A stretch of 64,000 nucleotides of DNA from Pseudoxanthomonas sp. PXM02 (GTDB lineage Bacteria; Pseudomonadota; Gammaproteobacteria; Xanthomonadales; Xanthomonadaceae). The stretch spans positions 310,001 to 374,000 of the forward strand of contig NZ_JACVAK010000001.1 in the NCBI RefSeq assembly GCF_014851805.1. The letters are read 5' to 3'. Both the position numbers and the translations under genes were made by a program. This document shows positions 4,462 to 11,595 of the stretch, in pieces (within the stretch, counting starts at the first letter, position 1; each line of letters begins with the position of its first letter). Under the pieces are notes generated by a model. It was not told the DNA's origin, made no database searches, and saw nothing but the letters and a program-made list of their open reading frames with translations.

Positions 4462-5124
4462 TTAGCGCTGCGGCGATGCCATCGCATCGCCTGCGGCACG
4501 CCACAACCACGTGCCGGCCAGCAACATGGCCGTGACGATCAGCAGGATCAGCAGCTTCTGCACCCATCCCTGCCCCGCGGGCGGCCACAGCGCGTGTATC
4601 CACAGCAGCAGGTAGCAGACGACCGACCATGCCGCGGCCAACGGAAAATGGCGGCACCATGCCGCATCCAGCCGGAACCGCCAGGCCTGCAGCACCATGC
4701 CGGTGGTGACGCAGAGGAACGCCGTGATCGCGCAGGTGTGATGGAACCAGTGATGGAAATCCGGCGCGATCTGCGGCAGCCAGGAGTCGCCGATCGCCAC
4801 GCCGGCCAGCGCGACAGCTCCGATGCAGAACAGCAGTACAGGCGCCGCGCTGCGTGCCTTCGCCGACAACTGGGCGCGCAGGCCAACGGAAAGCAGGACG
4901 ATGGTGGCGGCGAGCAGGCAGTACGCCGTTCGCAGCAGCAGACCCCAGGGACCGAGCAGGTACTGGCTCAGCGTGGCCTGGCGCCAGTCCAGGTCGCCGC
5001 GCACGACCTGCAACGCCCCGGCGACAAGCAGGAACAGGACGGCCCCGCCGATGGCCGAAATGGCAGCAAGACGGGTCGACGCGGAAGGTGGAGCGGAGGC
5101 GTCGGTGTATTTGGGACGGGACAT
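4462..5124 (-). CDS. DUF998 family membrane protein
   Basis: This is a 220-residue integral membrane protein with about six hydrophobic segments, matching the DUF998 family. Characteristic features are an early LSQYLLGPWG segment after the first membrane helix and the GDSWLP / HHWFHHTCAI histidine-rich stretch between helices. DUF998 proteins have no established function. The ATG at 5124 is chosen over an in-frame TTG two codons upstream. RidA begins 29 nt after the stop of this gene on the same strand, so the two may be cotranscribed. Confidence 0.8.
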   Translation of the reverse strand: MSRPKYTDASAPPSASTRLAAISAIGGAVLFLLVAGALQVVRGDLDWRQATLSQYLLGPWGLLLRTAYCLLAATIVLLSVGLRAQLSAKARSAAPVLLFCIGAVALAGVAIGDSWLPQIAPDFHHWFHHTCAITAFLCVTTGMVLQAWRFRLDAAWCRHFPLAAAWSVVCYLLLWIHALWPPAGQGWVQKLLILLIVTAMLLAGTWLWRAAGDAMASPQR

Positions 5125-5299
5125 GGACAACGGATCGCGGGGGACGCGGAATTATTGTCCAGGCGCTCAAGAATCCATGCGCGCGGCCGCTGTCATGGGC
5201 AAAGCTCCGCAGCGTGCCCGCCATCACGCTTTGACCTACACTCCGCCATCCCCCGGCAACCCGGGGATGGCCGCCACGAGCAAGGGGACTCCAGCGCCA

Positions 5300-6385
5300 A
5301 TGCCGTTCACTGCACCGCCGCCCGCTACCGATCCGGCGCGCCACACCCAACGCCTGCCGCGCCGGATCTACCGCTTGCGCATGCTCGGCATGGGTCTGGG
5401 GGCGCTGCCGATCGGCATGGTGCTGCTAGAGAACGGGGCCAGCGGCAGCCAGTGGGCGTTCCTGTTCTTCACCACGGTGCTGTGGCCACAACTCGCGCTG
5501 TGGCTGGCGCTGCGTCATCCGGTGCCGTTCCGGGGCGAGATCCGCAACCTGTTGGTCGACTCGATCCTGGCCGGCATGTGGGTACCACTGATGGCCTTCA
5601 ACCTGCTGCCCAGCGTGCTGCTGGTGACGCTGGCCACGGTGGACAAGATCAGCACCGGCATCGACCGGCTCTGGTACTGGTCACTGCCATTGATGGCGGC
5701 CGGCGCGCTGGCAGCCGGCATGGCCACGGGCTTCGAGGTACAGGCCGTCACCAGCATGCCGGTGATGGTCGCGTGCCTGCCGATGCTGCTGATCCACACC
5801 ATCGCCGTCAGCCAGGCCAGCTACCATCTGGTCCGCAAGGTGAAGCGGCAGAACAGGCAGCTCGATGAACTGAGCCGGCGCGACACCCTCACGGCACTGG
5901 ACAGTCGCCGCCACTGGCAGGAACAGGCAGCGCTGCTGCTCGAACAGTGCGCGGCGACCGGTGAACCGGCCACGCTGTTGATGATCGACATCGACCACTT
6001 CAAGGCGATCAACGACCGTCACGGCCATGCGGCCGGCGACGACGTACTGCGCGCGACGGCGGAGGTGATCCGCCACAGCATCCGTGGACACGATGCGGCG
6101 GGCCGTCTGGGCGGCGACGAGTTCGCGGTGCTACTGCGCGGTACCGATGTAGAGGCGGCCGGCATTGTGGCGCAGCGCATCCGCGAAGGGGTGCAGGCGT
6201 TGCAGACGGAGAGTGCGCCGGGACTGCGTCCCACCGTCAGCCTGGGACTGGCGAAGACGACGGGCGCGGCCGGATTGCGGGCGTGGATGGAAGCGGCCGA
6301 TCGTGCGCTCTACCAGGCCAAGAGCCGGGGTCGCAACCAGTTGGCGGTCGACGAGGACCTGACGCCGCTCGTCGATACGCCCTGA
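5300..6385 (+). CDS. MASE2-GGDEF diguanylate cyclase (DgcC/AdrA-like)
   Basis: This membrane diguanylate cyclase of about 361 residues is predicted to make cyclic di-GMP from two GTP. The N-terminal half is a MASE2 membrane sensor (residues about 20-180) that reads like E. coli DgcC (AdrA), including a LRHPVPFRGEIRNLLVDS segment before further membrane helices. The C-terminal GGDEF domain has an intact active site (GGDEF, 271-275). An inhibitory-site RxxD (RGHD) lies five residues before it, so product feedback is expected. The start could be the ATG at 5300 or at 5267. It converges with the next GGDEF gene. Confidence 0.87.
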   Translation: MPFTAPPPATDPARHTQRLPRRIYRLRMLGMGLGALPIGMVLLENGASGSQWAFLFFTTVLWPQLALWLALRHPVPFRGEIRNLLVDSILAGMWVPLMAFNLLPSVLLVTLATVDKISTGIDRLWYWSLPLMAAGALAAGMATGFEVQAVTSMPVMVACLPMLLIHTIAVSQASYHLVRKVKRQNRQLDELSRRDTLTALDSRRHWQEQAALLLEQCAATGEPATLLMIDIDHFKAINDRHGHAAGDDVLRATAEVIRHSIRGHDAAGRLGGDEFAVLLRGTDVEAAGIVAQRIREGVQALQTESAPGLRPTVSLGLAKTTGAAGLRAWMEAADRALYQAKSRGRNQLAVDEDLTPLVDTP

Positions 6386-6394
6386 CGTAGCACC

Positions 6395-8215
6395 TCAGGC
6401 GCCGAGATGCTCCACGCGATCGCGATGGGGCAGTTCCAGCACGTTGCTGGCCGCACGCACGGCGTCCTGCTCGTGGTCATTCACGCAGACGCGATTACGA
6501 CCGTTGTGCTTCGCGCGGTAGAGCTGCTTGTCCGCATGCGACAGCAGCTTGGCCAGGCTGTAACCGGACTCCTGACTGGAGGTCACGCCGAAGCTGCCGG
6601 TGATGGCGAACACGTGCCCCGTCTCGCGGGTCTCGATCTGCGCCAGGCGCACGCGGCAGTCTTCAGCCACGCGCGCGGCCGCACGCAGGTCGCAGCCGTA
6701 CATCAGGATGGCGAACTCCTCGCCGCCCAGGCGACCGAGCACATCGATGCGCCGGCAGAAGCCCTTGCTCGCCTCCGCCACTTCCTTCAGCGCCCAGTCG
6801 CCGGTGCCGTGACCGAAGCGGTCGTTGATGTTCTTGAAGTGATCCAGATCGAACATGATCAGCGCGGCCTGCTCGCCGTTGCGGGCGCACTCGGCCAGCG
6901 CGCGCTCGGCGCGGATGGTGAAGTGGTGGCGGTTGCAGATGCCGGTCAGGGCATCGGTCTCGGCCATCTTCTTCAACGACAGCTGCACGCGCTTGATCTT
7001 GAAGGCCCAGTAGCCGATCGAAGCGACCAGCAGCACCAGCAGGATGACGATCAGCCGGGTGTTCTGCGCCGCCGTCTGGTCGACCTTGCGCTGCAGCTGC
7101 AGCACCTGGTTCTTCTGATCGAGCGCGCTGATCTGCTGGGTTTTCTGCAGCGTCTCCTGGCGAACGATCTGGTACGCCAGTTCCCGCGCGTTGACATCGT
7201 TCAGATAGGCCTTGTCGGCTTCGGCGAACTTCCGGAACTGGGTGAGCGCGAGCGCCTTGTCTCCCTTCCGTTCCGCGATTTCGTACAGCGTCCGATACGC
7301 CGCCACGAGCGGAACGGAATACGGGATGTTCGCGCTCAGCGCTGCTGCACGGTTCGCGTGTTCCTCGGCAGCTTCGATGTCCTGCTCCTCCAGCAGGAAC
7401 TGCGCGAGCAGGGAGTGCACCTCGCCTACCAGGCGCGGGTAACGGGTCCCCTCGATTTCTGCCAGGTTCTCGCTCAGCATCGAGATCGCTTTCTTGCGCT
7501 CCCCCTGCGCCGCCCACTTCTGCGCCAGCACCTGGCGCGTGAAGTTGGCTATCACCACTTCCTTGTTCGCCAAGCACTCATCGATGATGCTGACAAGTGC
7601 TTTGTCTTCGTTGGGAATTTCGCCCAGCTTGAGTTGCGCTTCGGACTTCAGGAATCCCGCGAAGCAGCGATCCCGAGGGCTCTTGCTGGCCGCAAGTACC
7701 TGCTCGGAGAACTGCAGCGCCAGTTCGTGCTGGCCAATCTGGTTGTAGAGCACAGCCGCCGACACGGCCGCATGGATCTTCAGATAGGGATCCTTCACCA
7801 CCGGCAACAGCGCCAGGGTCTGCTCCAGTTGCCGCAATCCCTCGGTGAACTGCCGCGTACCCGCGTAGCTGTTGACGATGAGCGAGCCGGCTCTGACCTG
7901 CATGTCCACCGACGAGGTGGAACGCATCAACTTGTTTGCCGCCTCGATTGCGGCGTCGAAGCGACCGGCGAATGCAAGCGCATAGGCATTCAGATACGCA
8001 ACCTGTGCCTGCTGGTCGCCCGTGGCCTCGCCCTTCCTCGCGTTGACCTCACGCAGCACCTGCCTGAACTCCACAGGATTCGCGCTACGGACCTGCTCGG
8101 CTTTCTCCAACAGCGCGTCGAAACCCAGCTTCTGCGGCGCAGACATCGCGGATGTCGAGCACAGCAAAAGGACCAGGGCGCAAAGCACCCCGGTCCATGA
8201 AAGACCGAACGTCAC
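6395..8215 (-). CDS. TPR-containing membrane GGDEF protein
   Basis: This predicted diguanylate cyclase of about 606 residues has a signal peptide, a helical TPR-like periplasmic sensor region (about 30-370), one membrane helix (about 380-405), a coiled linker and a GGDEF domain. The active-site motif is GGEEF (497-501), with RRID as an intact RxxD inhibitory site. The start is uncertain. A GTG at 8215 lies 7 nt after the stop of the borosin precursor gene. The ATG at 8260 would add a very basic n-region and overlap the precursor gene. Either way it appears to be the last gene of the borosin-like cluster and may be cotranscribed with it. Confidence 0.82.
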   Translation of the reverse strand: MTFGLSWTGVLCALVLLLCSTSAMSAPQKLGFDALLEKAEQVRSANPVEFRQVLREVNARKGEATGDQQAQVAYLNAYALAFAGRFDAAIEAANKLMRSTSSVDMQVRAGSLIVNSYAGTRQFTEGLRQLEQTLALLPVVKDPYLKIHAAVSAAVLYNQIGQHELALQFSEQVLAASKSPRDRCFAGFLKSEAQLKLGEIPNEDKALVSIIDECLANKEVVIANFTRQVLAQKWAAQGERKKAISMLSENLAEIEGTRYPRLVGEVHSLLAQFLLEEQDIEAAEEHANRAAALSANIPYSVPLVAAYRTLYEIAERKGDKALALTQFRKFAEADKAYLNDVNARELAYQIVRQETLQKTQQISALDQKNQVLQLQRKVDQTAAQNTRLIVILLVLLVASIGYWAFKIKRVQLSLKKMAETDALTGICNRHHFTIRAERALAECARNGEQAALIMFDLDHFKNINDRFGHGTGDWALKEVAEASKGFCRRIDVLGRLGGEEFAILMYGCDLRAAARVAEDCRVRLAQIETRETGHVFAITGSFGVTSSQESGYSLAKLLSHADKQLYRAKHNGRNRVCVNDHEQDAVRAASNVLELPHRDRVEHLGA

Positions 8216-8222
8216 GCGCGGA

Positions 8223-8498
8223 TTACTGCGCCTTCTCTTCCTGTTCGTCCTCGCGACCATCCCGATCACCGTCTTCATCGCCATTCTCCTTAAACGGCTC
8301 GTTCTCAGGCGCATAAATCGCGCAGACCATCATCGCGCGCGCGCCTACAACACCGTTGAGCGTATCCACATCACCCGTCAGGATCGCCTTCTTCTCCTGG
8401 TCCGTGACATCCGCATCACGGAAATAGGCTTCCAAGCTCTGCAGGCCCACTACCGGGGCCGCCCCCATACGTTCCAGCACCTGGATTGCATTCGTCAC
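8223..8498 (-). CDS. Split-borosin-type RiPP precursor peptide
   Basis: This 91-residue protein is read as the substrate of the adjacent N-methyltransferase. Residues 1-50 (opening TNAIQVLERMGAAP after the start residue, then DVTDQEKKAILTGDVDTLN) resemble the LigA-like, methyltransferase-binding helical domain of split borosin precursors such as Shewanella SonA, which has the comparable stretch EQINAVMTGDMEKL. A short hydrophobic stretch at 54-64 (RAMMVCAIYAP) is the likely core. An acidic, low-complexity tail (65-91) ends the protein. The GTG at 8498 is chosen because GGGGA lies 7 nt upstream and the downstream sequence reads as the family N-terminus. The open frame extends upstream to 8639, but that part is not protein-like. 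Which residues are methylated is unknown. Confidence 0.8.
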   Translation of the reverse strand: MTNAIQVLERMGAAPVVGLQSLEAYFRDADVTDQEKKAILTGDVDTLNGVVGARAMMVCAIYAPENEPFKENGDEDGDRDGREDEQEEKAQ

Positions 8499-8667
8499 GC
8501 GAGTATCCCCAAATTGCCCTTCTATGTACTGCGACCGCCACGGTTTTCCGATGTGCGGTCCCCCTGGAGGCCTCTTCGTCTGCGCCGGCAGGACCGTACG
8601 CGTGCCCCTTGTCGCGGACAATACCCGCTTTCGTGACATGGAACCACTACTGTGCCCCGGGCGGCGG

Positions 8668-9459
8668 CTACGCGCCGCTGGCCTGCAATGACGCCAGCCG
8701 ATCCAGCATGGCGTGGTTGCGCTCCAAGGGTCGGAACGGCGGGATTACCAAGGTGGTGCTCAGTTGAAGCCGGACCCTGGGCAGGTCTGACAGCGGCATC
8801 CGTTCCATTCGGGGTTTCGCGATCGGCAGGGTCGCGGCCTCGTACGCGATCACCTCATGTTCTGCCGGGCACCCCTGCTCCGCCAGCAGCTCGATGAGCA
8901 GATGCCTGAACTGCGCTCCCGTCTCGAAACGGGCGAGCGTGCGATCGCCCGCCACCCCGATCTGCCAGAGGATCAAGTACGCCGAGGGATCGATCCGACG
9001 CTTGTAGAACATGAACTGGCTGGCTTCGTAGTGCTGGCAGCCGTAAGTGCCGGGATCGATCCCCAGATCGGCGTAGAGGCAGTCTTCGGCGGACACAGCC
9101 GCCTCCATGACCGCGTCATGCCCCTCCTCACGGGCCTGGGCCACCGCCCTGTGTGGCACCACGGCGAACACCCCCGGGTGCCCGTAAAACGCGCCACATA
9201 CCCGTCGACCTGCGCGCACTTCCACCATCATGGCCGCGACCATCTCCCGATAGGTGTCGGTTCGCGGCTTACCCTCGGCGTAATAAGGCTGCAGGCTGCG
9301 CACGTCGCGATTCATGCCCTGCACCCACAACTCCACCAATGGATCGGAGACAGCGACGAATACGACATCCGCCTGCTCGATATGGCTGCGTGCCCGCGGG
9401 CCGATATGCGCACCCAGCATCATCCCGGTGCCCACGCAGGCCAGACTTCCCTTCTTCAT
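8668..9459 (-). CDS. Split-borosin peptide backbone N-methyltransferase (SonM-like)
   Basis: This 263-residue SAM-dependent enzyme has the tetrapyrrole methylase fold and is close in pattern to borosin alpha-N-methyltransferases (OphMA in fungi, SonM in Shewanella). SAM-binding motifs are CVGTGMMLG (8-16) and FYGHPGVF (91-98). The borosin-type catalytic block YYAEGKPRTDTY supplies Tyr59/Tyr60, Arg66 and Tyr70. Other family blocks are SAEDCLYADLGIDPG, YEASQFMFY and the C-terminal YEAATLPI/ERMPLSDL. It lacks a fused core peptide, so the substrate must be separate. The ATG at 9459 has an AGGGGA ribosome binding site and overlaps the acetyltransferase stop (ATGA). The precursor gene follows after 169 bp. 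Confidence 0.88.
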   Translation of the reverse strand: MKKGSLACVGTGMMLGAHIGPRARSHIEQADVVFVAVSDPLVELWVQGMNRDVRSLQPYYAEGKPRTDTYREMVAAMMVEVRAGRRVCGAFYGHPGVFAVVPHRAVAQAREEGHDAVMEAAVSAEDCLYADLGIDPGTYGCQHYEASQFMFYKRRIDPSAYLILWQIGVAGDRTLARFETGAQFRHLLIELLAEQGCPAEHEVIAYEAATLPIAKPRMERMPLSDLPRVRLQLSTTLVIPPFRPLERNHAMLDRLASLQASGA

Positions 9460-10001
9460 GTTTTCCCCTGTTTCATTGCATTGCCCGACGCATGCTGCCA
9501 GCGCGCCCGCGTCCGTTCCCACCTTACGCCACCATCCCGGTGTCCCTCCGCGGGAGTGCGCTCGAAGTCCAGCTTTCTCATCAACCCCTCGGCGCCGCCA
9601 TTCTCCGCCTGGTGGCGCGTAAAGACGATCTGGCAGCCGTCTTCGCTGAACGCGAAATCCATCAAGCGGCGGATGATCTCCGTCGCGACCCCACCGTTAT
9701 GCCACTCGGGCCAGATGAGGGCGCCGATCTCGTGCATCCCCTCCCGCGCCACGAGCGCCAACAAGCCGATCTCCCGGTCCGACGCTTTCTCGACGACCAC
9801 CCAGGTCCGATAGTCGCGACTTCCATTCCTGCTGAAGGATTCCACCTTGCTGAAGGCTTGTCGGGCCACCGCTGCGTCCAGTGGTTCAACCACATGCCGC
9901 ATCACCGCAGGATCGGTATACAGCGCGACATACAACGCCGCGTCCCTCGCGGCGAGAGGACGCAGATGGAAACGCGCCGTATCCAGCGAAAGCAGGCTCA
10001 T
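9456..10001 (-). CDS. GNAT family N-acetyltransferase
   Basis: This 181-residue protein belongs to the RimJ/RimL-like (Acetyltransf_3) GNAT group. It opens with LDTARFHLRPL, typical of these proteins, and carries a YRTWVVVEKASDREIGLLAL strand pair and a C-terminal acetyl-CoA region. Its stop codon overlaps the start of the borosin methyltransferase by ATGA, so the two are translationally coupled. That makes it a candidate tailoring or self-protection enzyme of the peptide cluster, although this is inference; ribosomal-protein or small-molecule acetylation are alternatives. The ATG at 10001 is chosen because the residues upstream are Arg-rich and unlike the family. Confidence 0.75.
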   Translation of the reverse strand: MSLLSLDTARFHLRPLAARDAALYVALYTDPAVMRHVVEPLDAAVARQAFSKVESFSRNGSRDYRTWVVVEKASDREIGLLALVAREGMHEIGALIWPEWHNGGVATEIIRRLMDFAFSEDGCQIVFTRHQAENGGAEGLMRKLDFERTPAEGHRDGGVRWERTRARWQHASGNAMKQGKT

Positions 10002-10026
10002 GCGTATACGCGATGCAGAAGCGACC

Positions 10027-10473
10027 TCAACCGTGCGCGCCCCTCGCCCACCGCACGATCGCCTCCGCCTGCATCGCACCGCTCTGCCGCGCGATCTCGC
10101 GGCCGCCCTGCAGCAGCACCATCGTCGGGATGCTGCGGATGCCGAAGCGGTTGCCCAGACCCGGGCTGGCGTCGGTATCCACCTTCGCCAGCCGCATCGC
10201 CGGCTCCAGCACCGCCGCGGCGCGTTCGAAATGCGGCGCCATCTGCAGGCAGGGCCCGCACCACGGCGCCCAGAAGTCGACCAGCAGCGGCAAGGTGCTG
10301 CGCAATGCGTGTCGATCGAAATCCGCCTCGCCCAGCGCCAGCGGCAGACCCGTGAACAGCGCCAGGTGGCAGCGCCCGCATTGCGGCGTCTCGGCCACCC
10401 GCTCCGCCGGCACGCGGTTCATCGCCGCGCAATGCGGGCAAGCGATCAGGTGGGCGGCGACTTCCATGCGCAC
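10027..10473 (-). CDS. trxC: Thioredoxin TrxC (thioredoxin 2)
   Basis: A cytoplasmic dithiol-disulfide oxidoreductase of about 148 residues. An N-terminal zinc ribbon (CPHC and CGRC pairs) marks it as thioredoxin 2 rather than TrxA. The thioredoxin domain carries the active site WAPWCGPC and the conserved cis-proline region RSIPTM. The start may be the ATG at 10473 or, two codons in, at 10467. It lies 25 nt upstream of the acetyltransferase on the same strand, so it may head the borosin-cluster transcript, perhaps by chance. It diverges from the transglutaminase/TPR gene. Confidence 0.92.
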   Translation of the reverse strand: MRMEVAAHLIACPHCAAMNRVPAERVAETPQCGRCHLALFTGLPLALGEADFDRHALRSTLPLLVDFWAPWCGPCLQMAPHFERAAAVLEPAMRLAKVDTDASPGLGNRFGIRSIPTMVLLQGGREIARQSGAMQAEAIVRWARGAHG

Positions 10474-10557
10474 ATCCTAACGCCGACCCGTAGCGCGATG
10501 CTGCGTCGCGACAGTCACTAGACTGCCGGTACCACCTGCCTGAAGGAGGGTCGCCCC

Positions 10558-11595
10558 ATGATCGCCCCCTTGCTGGCGGCCGCGCTGGCCATCGCCGACC
10601 TGGCGCCCGCCCCTGCCTCCGCACCCGAGCCCCCGGCCCGACCACCGACCCCGGCCGAGGTCATGGCGCTGCCGGAGCCGCTGCGCCAGCAGTTCCACGC
10701 CAGGGTGTTGTCCACGCCGCGCGCACCCGAGCAGCGCCTGCGTCGGCTGGTCGAGTTCCTGTTCTCGCCCGACGACCTGGGCATAAGCTACGACATCGAC
10801 GCCAACCACACGGTGGCCGAAGCGTACGCCACGCGGCGGGCGAACTGCCTCAGCTTCACGCTGCTCGCGATAGCGCTCGCGCGCGAAGCGGGCTTGCAGG
10901 CCTACGGTCAGCAGATCGATGAGACCCTGGCGTGGCGGCAGGAACAGGACACGCTCTACCGTACCCATCACGTCAACGCCGGCGTCCGCATCCACGAGCG
11001 CCAGCTGAGCGTCGACGTGGCCTGGGACCAGGTGATCGCCCGCAAGCCACCACGTGCGATCCGCGACGAACGCCTGCTGGTGCACTACTACAACAACCGC
11101 GCCGCCGACCTCCTGGAAGCCAATCGTCTGGAGGATGCATTGCGCTATGCGCAGGTGGCCAAGATGCTGGATCCCGACTACTCCGTCACCTGGAGCAATA
11201 CCGGTGTCCTGCATCTGCGCCATGGCGACCCTGCGCAAGCCGAACAGCACTACCTGCACGCGTTGCAGCTGAATCGGATGGATCCCGGCGCCCTCTCCAA
11301 CCTGGCAGCGCACTACCAGCGCACGGGCAACATCACGGCGGCGGCCCGTCTGCAGAAGCGCCTGCAACGGGTGCAGGCCAGGGATCCGTTCCACCACTTC
11401 CTGCAAGGCGTCCTGCACGAGCGCGAAGGCAAGCTCCAGCTCGCCGCGCAGGACTACCGCCAGGCGATCAAGCTGTTCCCGGACGAGCACCGCTTCCACT
11501 TCGGTCTGGCGCGCGTGTATTTCCTGCTGGGCGAAGGTGAAAACCAGCAGCGCTACCACGCCAAACTGGAAGCCCTGCGGCGGCTCACGCGCTGA
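10558..11595 (+). CDS. Transglutaminase-like/TPR protein
   Basis: This exported 345-residue protein joins a transglutaminase-like cysteine-protease domain to TPR repeats. After a signal peptide and a Pro-rich linker, residues about 60-165 hold the transglutaminase-like region with the likely nucleophile in RRANCLSFTLL and a later HHVNAGV histidine. From about 180 to 345 there are tandem TPR-like helices (NNRAADLLEANRLEDALRYA and following). The precise substrate of such xanthomonad proteins is unknown. A very strong ribosome binding site (GAAGGAGGG) precedes the start. Confidence 0.8.
   Translation: MIAPLLAAALAIADLAPAPASAPEPPARPPTPAEVMALPEPLRQQFHARVLSTPRAPEQRLRRLVEFLFSPDDLGISYDIDANHTVAEAYATRRANCLSFTLLAIALAREAGLQAYGQQIDETLAWRQEQDTLYRTHHVNAGVRIHERQLSVDVAWDQVIARKPPRAIRDERLLVHYYNNRAADLLEANRLEDALRYAQVAKMLDPDYSVTWSNTGVLHLRHGDPAQAEQHYLHALQLNRMDPGALSNLAAHYQRTGNITAAARLQKRLQRVQARDPFHHFLQGVLHEREGKLQLAAQDYRQAIKLFPDEHRFHFGLARVYFLLGEGENQQRYHAKLEALRRLTR

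Follow-up and report, generated by a model that had tools for sequence, protein, structure and literature searches.

The stretch of DNA analysed here (hereafter the window: 64,000 nucleotides, positions 310,001 to 374,000 of contig NZ_JACVAK010000001.1 from Pseudoxanthomonas sp. PXM02) contains an operon that codes, in this order, for a GNAT acetyltransferase, a borosin-type methyltransferase, a small peptide precursor and a membrane sensor composed of a tetratricopeptide repeat (TPR) domain, a transmembrane (TM) helix and a GGDEF domain. Judged by its sequence, the locus is almost certainly a split borosin; peptide and sensor very probably form one functional unit, and the explanation that best accounts for the whole, which we hold with slightly better than even confidence, is that the processed peptide acts on the sensor encoded next to it. 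The enzyme family, its catalytic residues, the precursor leader, the gene order, the co-occurrence of enzyme and sensor, the gene fusions and an exchanged output domain are the elements supported by sequence. The four genes, described as one strand-consistent run in an original prediction made from the letters of this DNA alone, all lie on the minus strand, and the stop codon (TGA) of the acetyltransferase gene and the start codon (ATG) of the methyltransferase gene overlap as ATGA (9459-9456). The features of the operon are as follows:

9456..10001, minus strand: GNAT-family acetyltransferase (Acetyltransf_3; PF13302, E 5e-23), ATG start at 10001
8668..9459, minus strand: split-borosin alpha-N-methyltransferase, SonM-like, 263 residues (SonM in the PDB, E 8e-77; Pfam TP_methylase, 65.5 bits)
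8223..8498, minus strand: borosin precursor, 91 residues, GTG start at 8498 (homologues adjoin the methyltransferase; profile matches SonA)
8310..8333, minus strand: predicted core block of the precursor, residues 56-63 (placed by alignment through Shewanella precursors and the four-fold repeat of locus L178)
6395..8215, minus strand: membrane sensor with signal peptide, TPR domain, TM helix and GGDEF domain (Pfam GGDEF, E 3e-42)

The methyltransferase

The best PDB match of the window methyltransferase is SonM from Shewanella oneidensis (a type IV borosin enzyme), and the next are the fungal borosins OphMA, dbOphM and MroMA (E 1.4e-48 to 3.4e-44), which are homologous but have their precursor fused to the enzyme. 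Five residues (Y60, R66, Y70, F98 and W165) are invariant in all 81 aligned methyltransferases, that of the window counted, and correspond by alignment to Y58, R67, Y71, F99 and W166 of SonM; according to the text available from PMC8429565, the first three act on the peptide and the last two serve closing. The catalytic block originally read from the sequence (Y59/Y60, R66 and Y70) lies at just these positions. Pfam assigns the protein to the broad TP_methylase family, like all borosin enzymes. A siroheme or cobalamin methylase, the identity that the original prediction had named as fatal to its reading, was rejected, since the best NCBIfam models score far under their cut-offs (YabN, 28.4 bits against 525; precorrin-3B C17-methyltransferase, 13.4 bits against 391) and the PDB matches are borosin enzymes; no siroheme model was listed by the NCBIfam search at E 0.1.

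The closest methyltransferase found among named records comes from Pseudoxanthomonas japonensis (76-77% identical), in keeping with the xanthomonad-like genome that had been proposed. The tree sets the clade of the window apart from that of the Shewanella SonM enzymes (support 100/98 and 100/99); the group labelled as fused in this tree includes L095 and L117, neither of which is a fusion of TPR, GGDEF and methyltransferase. A second copy of the methyltransferase or of the precursor was searched for in the window genome (4.34 Mb, 12 contigs) and none was found. Among the known borosin types, the locus is by sequence closest to type IV. In the SonM/SonA system, as in the window, the methyltransferase is free-standing and shares the catalytic residues, the precursor is a separate protein with a borosin-binding domain, and a TPR-GGDEF gene comes directly after the precursor; the last was read from locus L224, which encodes proteins identical over their full lengths to SonM (263 residues) and SonA (71 residues). 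The window differs by its GNAT, a 27-residue acidic tail on the precursor, a cysteine in the core and its membership of another clade, whereas SonA ends soon after its core. The cluster had been proposed as a distinct type, for which the separate clade, the GNAT and the acidic tail speak; the GGDEF partner does not set the window clade apart, because the SonM/SonA locus has one too.

The precursor and its core

The precursor is composed of a SonA-type leader (about residues 1-51), a hydrophobic core (M56-P64, MMVCAIYAP) and an acidic tail (65-91). Its start was set at GTG 8498 because homologues begin in the same alignment column, and the alternative ATG at 8639 (138 residues) was rejected. 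Searched alone against the PDB, the window precursor matched SonA only, at E 0.93, whereas a profile of 64 precursors (those aligned out of 67, window counted, after short or doubtful frames, the first of L007, L029 and L048, had been dropped) matched seven SonA sequences at E 0.0039-0.011, with the next match above E 5. The best of these covers residues 1-53 of SonA, a stretch termed the borosin-binding domain in what is available of PMC8429565. The AF2 model of the precursor has four confident helices followed by a disordered tail, and the top five Foldseek matches were all SonA chains, at values that are not significant by themselves (E 0.48-0.86). The 91-residue protein thus bears out its reading as a split-borosin precursor, since its homologues adjoin the methyltransferase and the profile found only SonA below E 5, and the split-borosin reading of the locus holds likewise, with SonM as best PDB match and the precursor as a separate gene.

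The MMVCAIYAP block is taken as the core unit because the precursor of L178 repeats this block four times in tandem. C59 is kept in 50 of the 64 aligned precursors, and position 61 is I, V or L in 57. In a proposed register, bridged by SonA (S-Y62-L63-V-I65-S-H-G) and Shewanella precursors such as one containing AYVVIATPTE, C59 and I61 align with the methylated L63 and I65 of SonA and are the predicted N-methylation sites. The acidic tails (74 tails) have a median length of 25 residues and a median of 38% D/E.

Three observations concern precursors elsewhere. In the L178 precursor (L178:3402-3836), each of the four cores has T-P-E, and the gene lies beside a GNAT and a methyltransferase with no TPR-GGDEF gene nearby. 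The precursors of L023 (7420-7848) and L028 (7464-7892) have a long lysine-rich, histone-like tail, and both loci have a GNAT-methyltransferase fusion; the acetyltransferase might act on the lysines of these tails. In the PDB search, SonA (L224:6948-7160) gave a score with TAL-effector repeats over about residues 16-48, which looks like a repeat artefact because no single stretch passes alone.

The sensor and its linkage to the precursor

The start of the window sensor is uncertain (GTG 8215 or ATG 8314). It has the active-site motifs GGEEF and RxxD and carries, by its sequence, the GG(D/E)EF motif of diguanylate cyclases; its AF2 model has a mean pLDDT of 91.9. In the set of 70 sensor genes (window counted; 63 entered the sensor alignment), GGEEF and, by a hydropathy rule, a TM helix ahead of the GGDEF domain are present in all, an N-terminal hydrophobic segment (by the same rule) in 68 and RxxD in 54. 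The TPR domain, which is predicted to lie outside the inner membrane, contains a cysteine pair in 107 of 108 sensors (the exception is L209), a conservation that fits a disulphide in an oxidising compartment. A fold search with the sensor is silent on the TPR part, because the 50 best rows were all GGDEF-domain proteins.

Related loci were collected by similarity to the window methyltransferase (59 loci, L003-L061; L062, from Embleya and 27% identical, was excluded), and therefore the sample is weighted towards its nearer kin. Downstream of the methyltransferase, and on its strand, 58 of the 59 have a TPR-TM-GGDEF gene, the sole other locus (L026) stopping at a contig edge, and a recognised precursor stands immediately before the sensor in 57 (L056 has enzyme and sensor without a recognised precursor). 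Seven of these loci contain runs of precursor-sensor-precursor-sensor. In Shewanella the sensor follows the precursor in all 21 loci read, of 92 places listed, the sensor of L240 being split into two frames. In a wider set (which holds one place twice, L107 being L192), a precursor is found just upstream of 91 of 110 sensors and a sensor just downstream of 91 of 98 precursors; the other seven precursors stand at a contig end (one), before an end-cut sensor (one), before a split frame (one), first in a tandem pair (two) or with no sensor (two, L178 and L179). In L186, a precursor-sensor pair lies well inside a contig other than that of the methyltransferase; it is the only pair counted as away from the enzyme, because two further pairs without an enzyme gene beside them (L188 and L189) are at contig ends. 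Other TPR-GGDEF sensors of the family stand apart from the methyltransferase, and no precursor was recognised ahead of them (L182, L183, L184, L185 and L187).

The linkage is also seen among genomes, in counts uncorrected for relatedness. The window genome has 39 GGDEF matches and one match to the TPR region of the sensor. Of 297 genomes drawn from the family, 104 have the enzyme and 99 the TPR region (97 have both, seven the enzyme only, two the sensor only and 191 neither); of 369 genomes sampled from the class, nine have the enzyme, and the three with the TPR region are all among those nine. Five of the seven enzyme-only genomes were read (G134 and G281 were left out): two (G088 and G290) have a TPR sensor by a more sensitive profile (L107 and L100, respectively), one (G271) has a 450-residue enzyme without GGDEF (L095), and in two (G022 and G043) no sensor lies near the enzyme. 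Enzyme and sensor occur together in Xanthomonadales, Steroidobacter, Rheinheimera, Shewanella and Alteromonas kin. Window genes outside the operon are common to at most seven of the 60 searched loci, once matches to the GGDEF domain only and shadow frames are set aside; because these genes are so rarely shared and the enzyme is present in just 104 of the 297 family genomes, the four-gene association is more than chance. The genes that flank the operon, coding for thioredoxin-2 (10473-10027) and a MASE2-GGDEF protein (4823-6385), were rejected as members since each is shared with few loci; the latter, on the plus strand, converges on the operon, and a GGDEF gene in the same position and direction is found in L003 and L018.

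Fusions and exchanged outputs

Twenty frames in which the sensor is fused to the methyltransferase were identified and 19 were fetched, 17 of them single TPR-TM-GGDEF-methyltransferase frames (L100 consists of two overlapping frames and L116 runs off its contig). A SonA-like precursor lies directly upstream of the fusion in all 18 loci with DNA there at a laxer threshold, and before 17 of 18 fused sensors in the stricter search of the wider set; these precursors have no acidic tail. A GGDEF-containing borosin type is not new, because the legend to a borosin scheme names GGDEF (in the part of PMC11395268 available), and that type probably corresponds to the fusion family seen here. It resembles the window in associating a borosin methyltransferase with GGDEF, with a precursor beside, but joins them in one protein, and its precursors are without an acidic tail; in the window, methyltransferase and GGDEF domain are encoded by separate genes, so that the locus is not a GGDEF-fused borosin.

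In two loci the output of the sensor is exchanged. L208 has the order precursor, TPR-kinase, methyltransferase and TPR-GGDEF, and its second gene (7474-10434) codes for a TPR sensor with the cysteine pair of the family that ends in a hybrid histidine kinase instead of GGDEF. L209 has the order methyltransferase, small precursor-like frame and TPR-kinase with receivers and Hpt (7383-10631), a diverged sensor, less surely of the same kind, joined to a hybrid histidine kinase. An output that is swapped while the partner is retained means that the input domain behaves as expected of a receptor.

Once the methyltransferase is allowed for, the distances between precursors track the distances among TPR domains (partial r 0.53). 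The co-variation tests (none of 500 Mantel shuffles was as high, relatedness being ignored) and the matching test (made in nine duplicated loci) are suggestive only.

Acetyltransferases and pepsin-type proteases

Counting the window, at least 41 of 60 loci have a GNAT gene next to that of the methyltransferase or joined to it as a fusion, with a limit of 300 bases under which overlapping frames are missed. When the enzyme, the GNAT, the sensor and shadow frames are set aside, the most widespread further neighbour is a pepsin-type aspartic protease (PF00026, shewasin-like), encoded upstream of the GNAT or the methyltransferase in nine loci (L026, L037, L048, L053, L058, L059, L236, L237 and L238). 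A PF00026 match is present in 20 of 77 Shewanella genomes, in every case within 2.1 kb of a borosin methyltransferase, and four further Shewanella genomes with an enzyme of this clade have no such match; in the family sample, 12 of 297 genomes have one, which lies no more than 1.7 kb from the methyltransferase in 11 and on another contig in the last. Taking both samples together, the pepsin homologue lies beside a borosin methyltransferase in 31 of the 32 genomes that have one (for the distances, a single match was taken for each Shewanella genome, 20 of 30 rows in all, and 13 of 16 rows in the family). No PF00026 match was obtained in 14 control genomes in either search. Shewasin D is an active, mainly cytoplasmic pepsin homologue whose in vivo function was not known in 2016, according to the available portion of PMC4814920. 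The presence of pepsin homologues beside the GNAT and the methyltransferase in many related clusters argues for cleavage of the precursor.

A proposed mechanism and its alternatives

In the proposed mechanism, the leader of the precursor would dock on the methyltransferase dimer, which would add methyl groups to backbone nitrogens of the core, in the window strain at the predicted sites C59 and I61. This leader-guided first step is known from SonM/SonA, in another strain, and is carried over by analogy. A protease would then free the peptide, the GNAT would probably acetylate it, and the peptide would reach the periplasm and bind the TPR domain of the neighbouring membrane protein; binding would alter the activity of the diguanylate cyclase and hence, in one direction or the other, the level of cyclic di-GMP (c-di-GMP). 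The peptide may be a signal, as its consistent pairing with a membrane sensor that makes a signalling molecule suggests, and we give about an even chance to the processed peptide being the ligand of the sensor.

Several observations weigh against this mechanism. Seventeen sensors have no recognised precursor just upstream, once a contig end and a precursor found by the laxer search are taken from the 19 of 110; L178 and L179 have methyltransferase and precursor with no sensor nearby, nor is there one near any of five remoter methyltransferases (at 33-40% identity). The core co-varies weakly with the sensor (partial r 0.28 with TPR, 0.22 with GGDEF and 0.001 with the methyltransferase), and the leader does so more strongly (0.385 with TPR, 0.197 with the methyltransferase). 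The matching test in the duplicated loci was mixed, two of the nine agreeing in fewer than half of the comparisons (L050, 24 of 72; L196, 35 of 72). The sensor of L209 was missed by the TPR search of the class sample in addition to having no cysteine pair. The window strain offers no known protease candidate (no PF00026 match in its genome), the precursor shows no obvious secretion signal, and the top clusters of shared neighbours contained no exporter family.

The alternative that survives best, which we consider possible but unlikely, is that the sensor governs the pathway: its TPR domain would sense an envelope cue and c-di-GMP would switch production of a peptide that is an ordinary secreted natural product. 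Operon adjacency and fusion fit any functional link, and the four-core precursor of L178, with no sensor nearby, resembles a product more than a signal. However, each precursor has its own sensor in the seven loci with precursor-sensor runs, and the L186 pair lies away from the enzyme; a common regulator is disfavoured because one copy per precursor would not be needed. Nor did an Rfam scan of the window and six loci find a riboswitch (c-di-GMP included) or other known RNA element at gathering thresholds, the single match in the seven sources being a tmRNA in L224.

It is less probable still that the precursor stays in the cell, methylated and active with leader and core together, and binds the cytoplasmic cyclase part or the fused methyltransferase as a regulator or timer. 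Such a role would suit the missing secretion signal and protease, the co-variation of the leader with the sensor, the long acidic tail and the fusions that place the methyltransferase next to GGDEF. Yet it is by its predicted outside TPR domain that this sensor stands out among the GGDEF proteins of the genome, L208 keeps this domain and its cysteine pair with a histidine kinase output, and the pepsin homologues point to cleavage. That the peptide is an antimicrobial or metal-handling product, with a cyclase linked only by shared neighbourhood ancestry, is very improbable: the fungal borosin omphalotin is indeed nematocidal (as stated in the accessible part of PMC11285071), but the window genes beyond the unit are little conserved, and enzyme and sensor are present or absent together across the family and adjacent from Xanthomonadales to Alteromonas kin.

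Relation to known systems and biological meaning

RRNPP peptide pheromone systems have cytoplasmic TPR receptors for small ribosomal peptides. The window resembles them in encoding a small ribosomal peptide next to a TPR protein, with no homology claimed, and falls outside that group: its TPR domain is predicted to lie outside the inner membrane, and GGDEF or histidine kinase domains are the outputs of the family. GGDEF, diguanylate and acetyltransferase go unmentioned in the main text of PMC8429565, and the portions of the borosin literature covered state no biological role for bacterial borosins. No paper joining borosin with diguanylate, pepsin or tetratricopeptide was found in a search that covered little of the subscription literature, and the novelty of the borosin-sensor link is unproven.

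There is also a wider and more tentative view, to which we give somewhat less than an even chance: bacterial borosins of the SonM type may be peptide signals, rendered protease-resistant by N-methylation of their backbone, capped by a GNAT, processed by cytoplasmic pepsin homologues in some lineages and read by a dedicated periplasmic TPR receptor, with one receptor per precursor and an output through c-di-GMP or a phosphorelay. For the bacterial pepsins (shewasins), the survey offers a candidate job. SonM/SonA, already purified and crystallised, gives a direct test system for the receptor reading. Should the neighbouring sensor prove to be the receptor, ribosomal peptides with N-methylation would become a signalling class tied to c-di-GMP.

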